A stretch of 64,000 nt of DNA from the NCBI GenBank assembly GCA_903876795.1, contig CAIRBK010000075.1:1-64000 (forward strand). The letters run 5' to 3'. Source of the DNA: an uncultured Verrucomicrobiota bacterium (lineage in GTDB: Bacteria > Verrucomicrobiota > Verrucomicrobiia > Opitutales > Opitutaceae). The position numbers and the translations under genes were made by a program. Positions 2,752 to 45,605 of this stretch are shown in pieces. A model generated the notes under the pieces. The model did not search any database and had not been told where the DNA came from. It saw only the letters and a list, made by a program, of their open reading frames with translations. How positions within the stretch are numbered: the stretch's first letter is position 1; each line of letters starts with the position of its first letter.

Positions 2752-2924
2752 GGGTCCGTTTCTGAAAGAACTCAGGTCATCGAACTCTGCGAGTGAGAGG
2801 AGAAGCCTGCGGGACCGTCGTTGCCCGCGACGGCACGAACCGCCGGGTCACCTCTGTCTCGGTCGACTTGGAGGAGCCCGCTTCTGCTCTCACGCCGACC
2901 CGTTTAATTTCCGAAACACACCCC
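2752..2924 (-). repeat. Dispersed TIR-type repeat, family 1, copy A
   Basis: About 170 bp, homologous over its whole length to 5988-6155 and 32171-32342. The ends are imperfect inverted repeats built on GGGTGTGTTTCNGAAA. Read on the minus strand it encodes the same peptide pattern as the other copies (SEI-K/N-RVGV, then VPSRA, then LT-x-RVR) and has one stop codon near its end. Here it is intergenic. Confidence 0.85.
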
Positions 2925-5088: not shown

Positions 5089-5997
5089 ATGCCGCTCATG
5101 TCCACCACCAGCTCCACTCTCACGCACGGCGAATACACGCGCAGCAGCTGGCGCCGCGGTTTATCACTCTACCTCGAACATCCCTTCATCCATGCCGGCC
5201 GCTGGTTAAGCTACATGAGCCGTCGTGCCTGGCCGGGCCGCGTGCTCCGCTTCACCGACGGCAAGGGCAATCGCTATGTATCCATGAAGAACAACTTCAC
5301 GTCCTTCGCCGTCGCCATACTCGGCGAACGCGACCCGGATGTGATGCGTTTCCTTCAACGCTGGATCCGGCCCGGTTTCGTCGCCTGCGACATCGGCGCC
5401 AACATCGGCACCTATACGGTCCCCCTCGCCCGCCTGGTCGGTCGCCACGGTCACGTGCTCGCCTTTGAACCCAACCGCCCCACCTGCGCCTGCCTGCGGC
5501 AAAACATCCGTCAAAACCATCTCACCAACGTGACCGTGGTTCGCGCCGCAGCAGGCCCCGAGGTGGGCGTTGCCGGCCTCATCGTTCCCGCGGATAACTT
5601 CGGCGAAGTTCATCTCGCCCCGCCCGGTGGAGCCGTGGATGCCCGCGTCGCTGTTACCACTGTGGATACCGAGGTCGCCCGACTGGGGCTCACCCGGGTC
5701 GATTTCATCAAAATAGACGTTGAAGGCTTTGAGCTCGCGGCCCTGCGCGGCGCTACCCGCACGCTCGCCCGCCAAACCAATCTCGTCATCCAAACGGAAA
5801 TCGTCCCCGCCCACTCCGCCCGGTATGGCTTCGAAATTGAGGACATGGTCACCTTCTTTGCCAGCCACGGTTACCACCCCTTTTCCTGTGATGCGGCTGG
5901 CCGCATGACCCCGGTTGATCCCGCTGCGGCCCAATCCGAAGCCGACTGGTTCTGGGCCCGCTCCGAAGAGGTCTTCACGCCTCGGGAGGGTTTCTGA
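5089..5997 (+). CDS. FkbM family SAM-dependent methyltransferase
   Basis: A predicted class I methyltransferase of the FkbM group, which typically O-methylates sugars or other small molecules. The SAM-binding motif I is ACDIGANIGTYTVPLA, with the acidic motif II residue in LAFEPNRP. The later VDFIKIDVEGFELAALRGA is the diagnostic FkbM motif. About 300 residues, as usual. Two starts are close together (ATG at 5089 and 5098); an upstream GTG at 5017 would add a non-homologous leader. There is no signal peptide and no neighbouring glycan cluster, so the substrate is unknown. The final codon and stop (TTC-TGA) lie inside a copy of dispersed repeat family 1, so the C-terminus was probably reset by that insertion. 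Confidence 0.85.
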   Translation: MPLMSTTSSTLTHGEYTRSSWRRGLSLYLEHPFIHAGRWLSYMSRRAWPGRVLRFTDGKGNRYVSMKNNFTSFAVAILGERDPDVMRFLQRWIRPGFVACDIGANIGTYTVPLARLVGRHGHVLAFEPNRPTCACLRQNIRQNHLTNVTVVRAAAGPEVGVAGLIVPADNFGEVHLAPPGGAVDARVAVTTVDTEVARLGLTRVDFIKIDVEGFELAALRGATRTLARQTNLVIQTEIVPAHSARYGFEIEDMVTFFASHGYHPFSCDAAGRMTPVDPAAAQSEADWFWARSEEVFTPREGF

Positions 5998-6155
5998 AAC
6001 AACTCAGGCCGTCGAACTCTGCGAGTGAGAGGATGCGCCGGCTGGGCCGGCTTTGCCCTCGACGGCACGACCCGCCGGAGCGCCTCCGTCTCGGCCGTCT
6101 TGGCCGAGCTCGCTTCTCCTCTCACGCCGACCCGATTGATTTCCGAAACACCCCC
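5988..6155 (-). repeat. Dispersed TIR-type repeat, family 1, copy B (overlaps the 3' end of the FkbM gene)
   Basis: About 168 bp, homologous end to end with copies A and C. On the minus strand it is open throughout and translates to the same peptide pattern (SEINRVGV, then VPSRA, LTRRVRR, ELFQ). Its left end supplies the TGA stop of the plus-strand methyltransferase gene. The terminal inverted repeats are GGGTTTCTGAAACAAC and, from the other side, GGGTGTTTCGGAAATCAA. Confidence 0.88.
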
Positions 6156-7914: not shown

Positions 7915-9078
7915 TCAGAAAAACTTCTTGGCCTTCTCGAAGAAGCTCTTCGAGGTGGGCTCGTCGGCGTCGCCGCTCACGCGCGCGAAATCCTCGAGGA
8001 TCTTCCGTTGCTCGGGCGTGAGCGACTGGGGCACCTCGACGTGGACGCGGATCAACTGGTCGCCGGACGAACCGCCGCGCAGGGACGGCATGCCCTTGCC
8101 CTTGAGTCGGAAGGTCGTGCCGCTCTGCGTGCCGACGGGGATCTTGAGCGAGGCTTTGCCGAAGAGCGTGGGCACCTCGATGCTGCCGCCAAGGGAGGCG
8201 AGCGTGAACTTGATGGGGATCTCGCAGAACAGATCGCCGCCCTGGCGTTCGAACAGCTCGTGGTCGCGGATGTTGATCACGATGTAGAGATCGCCGGGCT
8301 GGCCGCCGGCGAGACCGGCCTCGCCGTTGCCGCTCGAACGCAGGCGGGAGCCGGACTCGACGCCGGCGGGCACGCGCACGTTGAGTTTGGTGGTCTTGGC
8401 GGTGCGGCCCTCCCCGCGGCAGGCGGTGCAGGGCTTCTCGACTCGCTGGCCGCTGCCGCCGCATGTCGGGCACGTCTGTGTGAACGTGATGATGCCGCCG
8501 CTGCGGCGCACCTGGCCGTGGCCTGTGCAGGTGGGGCACTGAACCTTTTTGGAGCCGGGCTCGGCTCCGCTGCCGTCGCAGCGCTCGCAGGTCATGGCCT
8601 TGCGGAAACTGATCTCCTTTTCGACGCCCTTGGCGGCCTCCTCGAGGGTGATCTCCAGGTCGTAGCGCAGGTCGGCGCCATCGCGGTCGCCCCCGCGGCC
8701 GCCGCCGCCTCCAAACATCTCCTCGAAAATGCCGCCGCCGCCTCCCCCGCCGCCTCCGGCCCCGCCGAAGACGTCACGGAAGATGTCGAACGGATCATGG
8801 AACCCGCCGCCGCCGGCCCCGCCGGGCCCGCGCGGACCGGCCCCGCCGCCCTGCTGGAAGGCGGCGTGTCCATAACGGTCATACGCGGCGCGTTTCTGCG
8901 GGTCCTTGAGCACCTCGTAGGCCTCGGAGACTTTCTTGAACATCTCCTCGGCCTCCTTGTTGCCCGGGTTTTTATCGGGGTGATACTGCACGGCCTTCTT
9001 GCGATAGGCCTTCTTGAGATCCTCGTCGTTGGCGCCCTTCTCGACGCCGAGCAGTTCGTAGTAGTCTTGTTGGGCCAT
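7915..9078 (-). CDS. dnaJ: Chaperone protein DnaJ (Hsp40)
   Basis: Co-chaperone that delivers substrates to DnaK and stimulates its ATPase. Domains in order: J domain at residues 1-70 with the essential HPD motif ([19 protein letters not shown]); a Gly/Phe-rich linker at about 75-125 with long glycine runs; a zinc-finger region with four CxxCxGxG-type repeats ([32 protein letters not shown]); and the C-terminal substrate-binding domain. It is a full-length type I DnaJ at 387 residues. grpE ends 9 bases upstream, the usual heat-shock pairing; dnaK is not in the window. No CIRCE inverted repeat was seen upstream of grpE. Confidence 0.98.
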
Positions 9079-30794: not shown

Positions 30795-32399
30795 TCACGG
30801 CGCGACAAGCACGCGCGGGGTAAAAAGCCACCAGTCGGGACCGAGGCGTTCGATGCGGGCGAAGACCCTCGACCCCGGGCGCAGCACGGCGAGAACGTCG
30901 GGTGCCGCTTTTAAAACCGTGCTGGCGGCCTTCATCAGCCCGGGGATTTCCTCGTGGGCGAGGGTGACCGTGCCGACGGAGGAGTCGATGGAGAGGATGC
31001 GGCCCTTAATCGCATAGCCGCGTTGCTCCTCGGGGCGCGGGTCGCAGCCGCACAAGTCGGCCTCGGCCAGCTGGCCGGCGTCGGGCAACGTGAGGAGGCG
31101 TGTGTGGAGTTGCGCGGACGCCTCGTAGGCGACGAGCAGTTGGGCGGGGGTCGAGTCGCCGTCTTTGATGCGGACGAGGCTCGGGTGGCCGGTGATTTTT
31201 TCGGCGATGCGCACGGGCACGCCGAGCGTATGGCGAGGTGACAGGCGGCGCAGATAAAGGTTGTCGCCGGTTCCGTCGCGCTCGACCCAGCTGGCCAGGT
31301 TGGCCCCGTCGTCGAGCATCACGAGATCGGCGCGACCGACGGGGGCGACATCATCGATGCGCTCCGGCATGAGCCATTGGCGGCCGGCGTTGCTGGAGAC
31401 GGAAAGGTTGATGCGAGGTCCGTCGGCTGCGGTGAACCACACGGCCGCGAGGTGCGCGCCGCGCACGGCGAGGGCGGGACCTTCGGCGGGCGGCGAGGCG
31501 GGTTCCCAGTCATCGGGGCTCAGGGCTGCGGACGGGGTCCATGCGCCGTCCTGAAAGCGCAGCGTGCGGAGGTCGTGGGTGCGGCCGTTGATCACGGCGC
31601 GATAGGCGATCAAGGCGCCGCCATCGGGGAACGCCGCGAGCGCCGGCCGGCTGCCGGGACTGGCGGCGGCGAGCGTGAGCGGCGGGGCTTCCGGTGCGCC
31701 GAGTATACGGCCCTGGAGCGTGCAATCGCCGGGCGCGTGTTCCTCGAGCCAGACGGCGAGCAATCGTCCGTCGGCCAAAAATTGCAGAGCCGGCGCGCTT
31801 GGCGGGGCGGCATCCGTCGGGATGCGTTCGGTGTGCCAGTTGGCAAGCCCGTCGTCCGAGACAATCAGGCGCAGCAAGCGTTCCTCGGCGAGCAGGATGG
31901 CCAGGCGTCCAGCGGCGCCGGGGGCGACCGCGAAGCCGGTGGGAGGAGTGGACATGGCCAGCAAGGTGTTGGCCGGCGTCCATGAACGCGACGAATCGAG
32001 ATAGGTGGTGATGCGAAGTTGGAATCCCTTCCCCGACGGTTCGATCCAGGCGAGACGAACGGGGCCATCGGCGGAGCGGACCAATCGTGGAGAGCGGGCA
32101 CCGGAGCCCGCAGGGACGCTGATCGGCTCGTTTTGGACCACGAATGACGGTGAGTCCTCCGCCGGGCTTAGGGTGTGTTGCGGAAACAACTCAGCTCGTC
32201 GAACTCTGCCAGTGAGAGTATAAGCAGGCTGGTCCGGCGTTGCCCTCGACGGCACGACCCTCGGTGTCGCCTCCGTCTTGGCCGCCTTGGCCGAGCCCGC
32301 TTCTCCACTTACGCCGACCCGATTTATTTCAGAAACACACCCTTGCGTCGCGACCACCAGGAATACGAACAATGCGAGGAGTGGAGAGCGCCGGGTCAC
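30795..32399 (-). CDS. Exported beta-propeller (BNR/sialidase-like) protein with C-terminal copper-binding-like domain
   Basis: 534 residues. The N-terminus is a signal peptide (SPLLALFVFLVVATQ). Residues ~20-77 are encoded by repeat family 1 copy C. Residues ~85-430 carry repeated S/D-x-(D/G)-x-x-x-W-like blades (SNAGRQWLMPERI, DGRLLAVWLEE), as in BNR/sialidase-fold propellers. A CGC pair (DLCGCDPRPEE) comes next. The last ~85 residues match the CusF/Cu_bind-like pattern (GRILSIDSSVGTVTLAHEEI, then IPGLM); the His is kept, but the later Met pair of CusF is not seen. It is the first gene of the metal-related trio. Its ligand and enzymatic activity, if any, are unknown. Confidence 0.72.
   Translation of the reverse strand: MTRRSPLLALFVFLVVATQGCVSEINRVGVSGEAGSAKAAKTEATPRVVPSRATPDQPAYTLTGRVRRAELFPQHTLSPAEDSPSFVVQNEPISVPAGSGARSPRLVRSADGPVRLAWIEPSGKGFQLRITTYLDSSRSWTPANTLLAMSTPPTGFAVAPGAAGRLAILLAEERLLRLIVSDDGLANWHTERIPTDAAPPSAPALQFLADGRLLAVWLEEHAPGDCTLQGRILGAPEAPPLTLAAASPGSRPALAAFPDGGALIAYRAVINGRTHDLRTLRFQDGAWTPSAALSPDDWEPASPPAEGPALAVRGAHLAAVWFTAADGPRINLSVSSNAGRQWLMPERIDDVAPVGRADLVMLDDGANLASWVERDGTGDNLYLRRLSPRHTLGVPVRIAEKITGHPSLVRIKDGDSTPAQLLVAYEASAQLHTRLLTLPDAGQLAEADLCGCDPRPEEQRGYAIKGRILSIDSSVGTVTLAHEEIPGLMKAASTVLKAAPDVLAVLRPGSRVFARIERLGPDWWLFTPRVLVAP
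32171..32342 (-). repeat. Dispersed TIR-type repeat, family 1, copy C, in frame inside the propeller gene
   Basis: 172 bp. The termini are clear inverted repeats: GGGTGTGTTGCGGAAACAAC on one side and GGGTGTGTTTCTGAAATAAA on the other. It lies wholly within the coding region and keeps the frame, contributing about 57 residues (GCVSEINRVGV through RVRRAELFPQHT) right after the signal peptide. The left flank is TA and the right TT, so a TA target duplication is possible but not proven. Confidence 0.9.
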
Positions 32400-34552: not shown

Positions 34553-35524
34553 TTAGATCCAGCGCTTGCGGCGCATGAAGAGAAGCATGGCGACCAGGCT
34601 GGACAACGTAAGAGCCACTGCGGTGGCGTAGCCGTGAGCGGAGCCGAGCTCGTGCATGCGCTCGAAATTCATGCCGAACCAGCCGCCCACCACCAGGGGG
34701 GGGATGGTCAGGGCGGTGATCGCGGTGATGACCTTGATGCCCTGGTTGGCCTCGTAGCCGGATTTATTGAGGTAAATGCGAAACGAGAGAATCAGCTGTT
34801 CGGCCCAGGACGCCGCCTGGGTCTCGATGCGCACGAGGTTGTCGCCCACGTCGCGCAGGTAGGGCACGATGGCGGGGCGGATCAACCGGGACTTGCCCTG
34901 GCTGAGCGCCGCCAGCACTTCGCGTTGCGGGCGCACCAGCTGGCGCAGGCGCGAGAGGTCCTTGCGAAGCGCCACCACGCGGGGAAAGAGTTCGTCGGCC
35001 GAGATCTGGCGGAGCACGCCGTCTTCCAGACGGTCCACTTCTGCCCGCAGGGCGGACAGGGCGGGCTGGCAGCCGTCGACCAGGCTGTCGAGCAGGCTGT
35101 GGGCGAGGCGGTCGGAGCCGCGCACGAGGGTGCCCGGCGAGCGTTGAGCACGTTCCCGCACGGCCTGCACCGCGCGCAGCGGTGTGCGATGGTAGGTTAC
35201 AAGATAGTTGGGGCCGATGAACAGATCGAGTTCCGAGGTGGTGAAGCCGCCTTCGGCGGTGTAGCCGATGCCGTGCGCCACGATGTAGAGGTAGTCCTCG
35301 TAGTCTTCGATCTTGGGCAGGGGGCTTTCGGCCACGCAGTCCTCGATGGTGAGCGGGTGGAAGCCGAAGGTTTTTTCCATCACGTTGGCGACCTCTTCCG
35401 GCGATGGCTGGTCGAGGTCCACCCAGAGCAGCACGCCGGGCTCCTGCCGCAGCGCGGCCAACGCGTGCGCCTCGGGTTGGTGGGCGGTGACCTTGTGGTC
35501 CCGGTAAACAAGGGTGGTGATCAT
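34553..35524 (-). CDS. corA: CorA family magnesium transporter, paralogue 1
   Basis: Divalent cation channel, probably Mg2+. 323 residues: an alpha/beta cytoplasmic funnel domain, a long stalk helix, and two C-terminal membrane helices. The signature GMN motif is in VVGGWFGMNFERM between the helices. The tail is basic (FMRRKRWI). It lies 26 bases downstream of the second corA gene on the same strand. The two proteins share the same layout and many identical blocks (FHPLTIEDC against FHPLAIEDC, SPLPKIEDYEDYLYIV against SPLPKIEDYEDHLFIV), so they come from a tandem duplication. Confidence 0.93.
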   Translation of the reverse strand: MITTLVYRDHKVTAHQPEAHALAALRQEPGVLLWVDLDQPSPEEVANVMEKTFGFHPLTIEDCVAESPLPKIEDYEDYLYIVAHGIGYTAEGGFTTSELDLFIGPNYLVTYHRTPLRAVQAVRERAQRSPGTLVRGSDRLAHSLLDSLVDGCQPALSALRAEVDRLEDGVLRQISADELFPRVVALRKDLSRLRQLVRPQREVLAALSQGKSRLIRPAIVPYLRDVGDNLVRIETQAASWAEQLILSFRIYLNKSGYEANQGIKVITAITALTIPPLVVGGWFGMNFERMHELGSAHGYATAVALTLSSLVAMLLFMRRKRWI

Positions 35525-35549
35525 GGGAGCGCCGCGTGGAAGGGAGCGG

Positions 35550-36518
35550 TCAGATCCAGCGTTTCTTTTTGCACCACGCCCAGGTGAGGCCGGTGAGCAC
35601 GAGGGTGAGCCCGATGACGGCGGGGTAGCCGTAGGGGGATTTAAGCTCGGGCATGTGCTCGAAGTTCATGCCGTACCAGGTGCTGATGAGCGTGGCCGGG
35701 AGGGTGAGGGCGGTGAGGGCGGTGAGGGTCTTGATGCCCTGGTTGGCCTCGTAGTCGGATTTGCTCAGGTAGAGATCAAAGGAGATGAGCAGCTGGTCGG
35801 CGAAGCCGGCGGCGGTCTCCTCGATGCGCGTGAGGTTGTCGCGCAGATCGCGGAAGTAGGGTAGCATGAGCGTGCGGATGAGTTTGTTTTCACCGTGGGC
35901 CAGGCGGCTCACCAACTCGCGCTGCGGGCGGATGATCTGGCGCAGGAGAGTGATGTCGGCGCGCACATGCATGAGATCGGGGATGAGGCCCTCGGAGTTC
36001 CTGGCCAGCACGGTCTCCTCGATTTCCTCCAGCTCGCCGCGCAACTCGTCGATGATGGGCTGGAAATTGTCCACCATCGCATCGAGGACGAAGTGGGCGA
36101 GGCGGTCGGGACCGCGGGCGACCACGCCGGTGGCCTTGACGCAGCGCTCAATGACGGCGCCGACCGACTTGAGGGCGTTGCGGTGAAAGGTCACCAGAAA
36201 GTCCTTGCCGAGGAAGAGATCGAGTTCGGTGGTGTTGAACTTCTCGGTGCGGGTGAAGTCCACCGCGTGGGTCACGATGAAGAGGTGGTCCTCGTAATCC
36301 TCGATTTTGGGGAGCGGGCTGGGGGTCACGCAGTCTTCGATGGCGAGCGGGTGGAACTGAAAGACATCGGTCAGGACGAGTTTGATCTCTTCCTCGGTGG
36401 GGTTTTCGAGGTCCACCCAGAGCACCAGGCCCTTGTCGGCGCGGACGAGGCGGAGGGCCTCCACCTCGAGGTCCTGTCCGACGAGTTTGCCGTCACTGAA
36501 TATGAAGGAGTGAATCAT
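35550..36518 (-). CDS. corA: CorA family magnesium transporter, paralogue 2
   Basis: 322 residues with the same architecture as its neighbour: a cytoplasmic funnel, a stalk and two C-terminal helices. The GMN motif is in ISTWYGMNFEHMPE. It ends in the basic KKKRWI. It is the upstream gene of the tandem pair. The N-terminus (IHSFIFSDGKLVGQDLEVEALRL) differs most from its paralogue, suggesting the two are tuned differently. The ion (Mg2+, Co2+ or Zn2+) is not decided by sequence alone. Confidence 0.92.
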   Translation of the reverse strand: MIHSFIFSDGKLVGQDLEVEALRLVRADKGLVLWVDLENPTEEEIKLVLTDVFQFHPLAIEDCVTPSPLPKIEDYEDHLFIVTHAVDFTRTEKFNTTELDLFLGKDFLVTFHRNALKSVGAVIERCVKATGVVARGPDRLAHFVLDAMVDNFQPIIDELRGELEEIEETVLARNSEGLIPDLMHVRADITLLRQIIRPQRELVSRLAHGENKLIRTLMLPYFRDLRDNLTRIEETAAGFADQLLISFDLYLSKSDYEANQGIKTLTALTALTLPATLISTWYGMNFEHMPELKSPYGYPAVIGLTLVLTGLTWAWCKKKRWI

Positions 36519-45561: not shown

Positions 45562-45605
45562 TGCCGCCGCGTCCCGTCGTCTGGGATTTGAATCGGGTGG
45601 TGTGA

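Follow-up and report, generated by a model that had tools for sequence, protein, structure and literature searches.

In a 64,000-nucleotide stretch of DNA from an uncultured Opitutaceae bacterium (the window), the gene of an exported beta-propeller-like protein carries in its leader, in frame, one copy of a 172-bp repeat. Very probably this repeat represents a family of non-autonomous MITEs of the Opitutaceae that form a hairpin over their full length, duplicate TA and are mobilised in trans, and its copy in the propeller leader has been tolerated. The element is a small dispersed repeat with inverted termini, it duplicates TA at YTAR (CTAG-like) targets, and it is too short to hold a transposase gene. 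The pairing of the hairpin is maintained by compensatory changes across genera of the Opitutaceae. The family looks undescribed and of a known kind, resembling ERIC and RU-2, and its in-frame fusions appear to be recurrent but infrequent. The features are located in Table 1.

Table 1. Location of the element, its targets and the fused genes; positions refer to the window unless a contig (C) or a locus of a relative (L) is named.
Feature	Position	Strand	Remarks
Exported beta-propeller-like protein, 534 codons, carrying the insertion	30795..32399	-	GTG start
Start and hydrophobic part of the old signal peptide	32345..32399	-	placed by eye
In-frame copy of the 172-bp hairpin MITE in the propeller gene	32171..32342	-	modelled strand is the coding strand
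TA target duplication, 3' side in coding orientation	32169..32170	.	low-coordinate side of the element
Opposite copy of the duplication, changed to TT (coding strand: AA)	32343..32344	.	
Second window copy	5984..6155	-	85% identity; at the 3' tip of a roughly 323-codon gene
Third window copy	2752..2923	-	81% identity
Element ends, as expected of a cognate IS			TAGGGTGTGTTTCTGAAAT
R2 repeat in the same genome	C72:102763, C12:13253, C58:8604, C50:36957 and others		based on the flanks of the element
Empty R2 copy	near 45600	-	
271-bp form in L168	1503-1773		after codon 3 of a POTRA/BamA-like gene, ahead of its hydrophobic leader
271-bp form in L306	1706-1976		93% identical to the L168 form; between two nucleotidyltransferase pieces

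Copies and insertion sites of the element

A local BLAST within the window confirmed the identity of the repeat that the first-pass annotation had reported in the propeller gene and found its two further copies. The annotation had described imperfect inverted termini of about 20 bp; inverted termini are present, but the structure is really a hairpin over the whole length. It had also allowed that no copies might exist beyond these three, whereas the genome contains at least 60. The first search of this genome gave at least 41 main places (40 of 122 candidates were scored), and a 26-base core pattern with at most three mismatches gave 54 places, compared with none for a reversed-pattern control. 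The figure of at least 60 was reached once the fetched stretches were merged; in this merged set the copies are 84-97% identical to the consensus, and 55 of 60 cover at least 121 consensus positions, one of which is truncated where its contig ends. Around orphan terminal repeats we found six more copies, full or partial. Among 32 aligned copies the length ranges from 171 to 176 bp and is exactly 172 in 24.

Some copies stand head to tail, one or two bases apart (G000:C44:2948-3290 and G000:C87:17823-18117). A third repeat, with another body, has the left terminus of the element, GGGTGTGTTTCTGAAATAA (L206, L207, L208, and L205 near 8547-8740), and in contigs C89 and C11 it directly precedes an element copy, as if both could move as one unit.

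The target was examined at the flanks and at R2, a second dispersed repeat of the same genome into which several copies have inserted. When filled and empty R2 sites were compared, the gap was 181 in five of seven filled sites (one was 180 and one was misread by the pattern) and 7 in three of four empty sites (the other was 6); these sites were chosen by eye, and the loose pattern also gave many chance matches. The difference of 174 bp corresponds to the 172-bp element plus a 2-bp TA duplication, so an insertion adds 58 codons in frame. Flanks of the copies in this genome mostly read YYA on the left and TRR on the right. Among 54 old copies of this genome, 7 are flanked by TA on each side, 22 on a single side and 25 not at all, and we attribute its loss from about half of them to the age of the copies. 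Copies in relatives have TA on both sides in 25 of 41 cases, with an end-finding rule that favoured TA. R2 itself begins GTAGCGGAATCGCGGAGCGATTT, ends near GCATCCAGCCATTGG, has served repeatedly as a target for the element and looks like a GTAG-type REP repeat.

At E<=0.001, 47 of 252 genomes and 15 of 49 genera of the family had a match to the element, often a short and weak one. The exact core pattern was found in 61 contigs among 84,980 species genomes, each of them titled as Verrucomicrobiota (Opitutaceae, Opitutae, Opitutus, Rariglobus, Verrucomicrobia/Verrucomicrobiota and Akkermansia muciniphila), and one of the carriers is a complete genome, CP011265.1 (Verrucomicrobia bacterium IMCC26134). 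The MAG records titled Akkermansia muciniphila (L217, L220, L224 and others) carry this Opitutaceae repeat, and we suspect that they are mislabelled. No match to the element was found in viral contigs and phages, and the sole plasmid match, which covers 32% of the query with an E of 3e-3 inside a Tsukamurella gene, was taken as chance.

The propeller gene carrying the insertion

The minus-strand open reading frame of the propeller gene runs through the element in frame, and leader, insert and about 457 further codons form one frame with no stop. In Pfam, BNR_2 matched weakly and CusF_Ec reached 26.7 bits against a cut-off of 27. At E<=1e-10, 116 of 252 genomes of the family have a match to the protein, some of them being counted for a match to the repeat alone; the best matches align from about residue 77 onward. 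Element sequence was absent from all 29 orthologue loci inspected, and 18 of 22 aligned orthologues span the junction and have roughly 58 residues fewer there; the remaining four are truncated or have poorly chosen starts. Leaders of the closest orthologues end in LHA, LRA or VRA and are followed by a mature start with DSP or DPP, from which we infer that the old leader of the window protein probably ended in VVATLSPA before EDSP. With cleavage sites placed by eye, the insert is predicted to be inside the signal peptide, just before the putative old cleavage site.

The first-pass annotation had proposed a mobile palindromic element, in frame in the leader of an exported protein and free of stops on the coding strand, and the 174-bp sites, the continuous frame and the orthologues that lack the segment support this proposal. 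Two details of it had to be corrected: the addition is 58 codons (172 + 2 bp) rather than about 57 residues, and its position is inside the signal peptide rather than exactly at its end. The annotation had also found the same open frame in another copy, which holds for the second window copy but not for the third, where one stop occurs.

In an AlphaFold2 model of the protein the mean pLDDT was 82.7, residues 17-84 were below 50 and the first strand began at residue 89; a low pLDDT would be expected in any case for a stretch that no other sequence of the alignment covers. The model suggests that the 58 residues added between hydrophobic core and mature propeller are probably disordered. The propeller protein may be made and exported in its present form. 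Elsewhere on the minus strand of the window, two adjacent tandem genes lie at 34553-36518, which by their sequence we take to be CorA-like magnesium transporters.

Fold and covariation of the hairpin

The consensus folds as one end-to-end hairpin, a stem-loop over the whole element, with an energy of -119.5 kcal/mol compared with -65.0 for shuffled sequences (z -13.7). To follow this pairing between genera of the Opitutaceae we used 47 sequences, comprising 43 of the 76 elements placed in relatives and four copies from the window's genome picked by hand; elements of relatives were kept for a match of at least 14/19 to the terminal inverted repeat, a length of 170-184 and non-redundancy. Both sides had changed in 41 of 59 pairs, compared with 29 in shuffled and at most 27 in slid versions, and the covarying cells numbered 431, compared with 133 and at most 84, respectively. 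Since the sequences were selected partly for intact termini, helix 1 is favoured in this count and the inner helices are not; among the latter, 14 of 21 pairs in helix 3 and 6 of 10 pairs in helix 5 had changed on both sides. Full-length elements of relatives have termini that differ in sequence yet stay complementary, and a middle stretch is nearly invariant in the aligned relatives and the copies of this genome.

Compensatory changes that reach the inner helices, together with the conserved core, also favour an alternative that we consider unlikely, namely that the element is kept for a function of its own, in the form of structured RNA or of a single strand that folds (a regulatory RNA, an RNase site or a terminator) and that its mobility is old. 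Its strand preference points the same way: the alignment energy was -81.9 for the forward and -45.0 for the reverse strand, the forward strand folded better in 36 of the 43 elements of relatives, and G.U cells outnumbered A.C cells, at 47 to 32 for the pairs that both strands predict and at 184 to 42 on the forward fold, which is itself biased towards G.U. Some copies also lie at the 3' tips of genes. However, the forward strand folded better in 28 of 32 decaying copies of this genome as well, so the strand signal is inherited and is no proof of present function, and single-sided changes in the copies of this genome gave 57 G.U and 73 A.C. Moreover, arm-to-arm correction in a DNA palindrome can also yield covariation, and an Rfam scan of nine loci gave no family for the element but only a tRNA and a sub-threshold antisense match.

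Search for the mobilising transposase

Under the preferred reading of a MITE mobilised in trans, a DDE transposase able to recognise the termini and to duplicate TA would have moved the element, and one copy would have entered a TA in the c-region of the signal peptide of the propeller protein. Since 172 + 2 makes 174 bp and the frame is stop-free, the gene would have stayed open and gained a 58-residue segment. We guess that the transposase might be IS630-like. IS630 prefers CTAG.

A search of this genome with the terminal repeat gave at least 101 matches, with no long pair among the matches listed, and no long pair appeared when a variant terminus was searched in five relatives. Five transposase-like loci, two with PF13358 and three with PF01609, have ends unrelated to those of the element. 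Thus no autonomous partner with matching ends was found in these searches, and a draft assembly can lose IS elements. In L202 (1241-2884) a PF01609 transposase gene is framed by near-perfect inverted repeats starting CTAGCAGCCCGTCGGACT, and these ends are not those of the element.

Further in-frame fusions

A second leader fusion lies in the same genome at C27:40713, in a gene for a 376-residue protein with PF12974 (1.8e-44), where the element separates MKTRGKKIVREATAL from LALLLAFLAAGWLL. Relatives of this protein occur in five of 252 genomes, its own included, and the orthologue in L192 crosses the junction without the insert. Altogether 37 open reading frames of this genome were flagged as passing through or entering copies; 20 of them were read, and the other 17 had no coding signal on both sides. 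Other apparent fusions of this genome, in genes named from sequence, were rejected, as the native start follows the element or the frame looks antisense.

Among 106 distinct elements of relatives, 14 frames run through the element into coding-like sequence, and two of these fusions are convincing (L168 and L306). The gene downstream in L168 has PF07244 (2.6e-18), and the upstream TamB gene (PF04357, 8.9e-17) ends in the target CTAG itself. In L306 the element lies inside an enzyme, with NTP_transf_5 at residues 6-99 and AbiEii at 208-255; a distant solved relative (E 0.28) has the two pieces closer together, and no orthologue without the insert was found among plasmids. Like 172 + 2, the sum 271 + 2 is a multiple of three. 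The element has the same orientation in all four fusions and the same frame in three, and three of the four sites are in leaders of exported proteins while one is inside a globular enzyme. The form of about 271 bp has an extra hairpin-forming stretch before its right end and occurs also in L187, L286, L052, L305, L053 and L287.

Is the insert carried as protein?

The four in-frame fusions of one orientation, three in the same frame and one between the two halves of a nucleotidyltransferase, together with the palindromic structure and two length classes (172 and 271 bp), each divisible by three when the duplicated TA is added, would fit a Rickettsia-type palindromic element (RPE), selfish DNA adapted to life as protein sequence. 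We regard this second alternative as quite improbable, because the copies are mostly intergenic and the peptide of the propeller copy appears to be unconstrained. In a codon-usage gene model 50 of 55 copies of this genome overlap no predicted gene and the other five touch only a gene edge; this model covers 81% of the fetched sequence and misses both leader fusions of this genome that we found by hand. The propeller copy differs from the consensus by 13 substitutions, of which 9 are nonsynonymous compared with 8.9 expected at random (one copy, small numbers), and a random placement of the observed changes leaves no stop in 75% of cases. These values give no sign of constraint on the peptide and make the open frame unremarkable in itself; the frame is stop-free in 19 of 32 aligned copies of this genome. 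Frames and lengths in relatives were taken from a census in which 79 places were found, 76 elements placed and 65 distinct. The element frame is open in 29 of 56 of them and one reverse frame in 34 of 56, indicating that the element frame is not specially kept, and the commonest lengths with both TA present, 180 and 181, are not multiples of three once inserted.

It is most likely that the insertion survived because the leader tolerated added sequence, not through selection for the peptide. The weakest alternative, which we hold to be very improbable, is that the in-frame passage arose by chance, the propeller gene being a pseudogene or having its start beyond the insert: the codon-usage model does begin the gene after the insert, leaving it out, and most random placements of the changes are stop-free, as given above, but leader, insert and remaining codons share one stop-free frame, the leader of orthologues meets the same junction, and three other genes show the same pattern.

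Returning to the hairpin MITE as the preferred reading, we tentatively consider a wider one as possible, in which the family has been kept across genera of the Opitutaceae as an oriented folded single strand, either an RNA or a single-stranded transposition substrate, with changing paired ends and a conserved core, and in which leaders (three of four fusions) would be a recurrent place where a non-coding hairpin of frame-keeping length becomes protein. With arms that covary so strongly, it can be tested whether selection acts on such palindromes as RNA or solely as substrates of a transposase. The collection provides four cases of a mobile hairpin turned into protein sequence, and since orthologues of relatives without the insert were seen in two of them, it is directly testable what a mobile element costs when it sits in an export signal. 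It also provides a family-wide set of hairpin MITEs in a phylum without such a MITE in the literature listings.

Comparison with known systems

Literature searches on MITEs and palindromes of Opitutaceae and Verrucomicrobia gave no such element among the matches listed, and a search combining MITE, signal peptide and in-frame insertion found no paper. Three kinds of known element were compared with ours by their description.

The first is the GTAG-tagged REP repeat, in which Opitutus terrae is reported to be highly enriched (PMC3733652). Both are dispersed palindromes, and R2, into which copies of the element inserted, begins GTAG; the GTAG repeats of O. terrae may correspond to R2. The element itself differs in length and ends from a GTAG-tagged stem-loop moved by a RAYT, REPs being described as 20-40 bp long, whereas the element has 172 bp with terminal inverted repeats and a TA duplication.

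The second is the RPE, to which the first-pass annotation had likened the insertion. In the account of PMC10969869, RPEs are palindromic repeats of about 150 bp with in-frame insertions, which lie in open reading frames in nearly half of the cases with the peptide conserved, while prokaryotic MITEs are normally intergenic. Palindromic structure, similar length (172 bp) and in-frame insertions, four of them independent and one in a globular enzyme, are common to both. In contrast to that account, the element is in frame in a few per cent of the copies examined (two of at least 60 in this genome and two of 106 in relatives). With copies so largely outside genes, fusions this few and a peptide free of signs of constraint, the likeness to Rickettsia is partial.

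The third comprises ERIC (RU-1) and RU-2 of enterobacteria, 127 and 168 bp long, which are, like our element, non-autonomous stem-loops with TA duplication found mostly between genes; for RU elements, TA ends and an occasional signal-peptide fusion are described as well (PMC2759123). They belong to another lineage and are likened here by description, not by sequence, and for our element the orthologues point to the state before insertion, and covariation of the arms is seen between genera. On this comparison, TA-duplicating stem-loop MITEs of the ERIC/RU-2 type appear to fit better than RPEs, and we do not adopt the RPE label.
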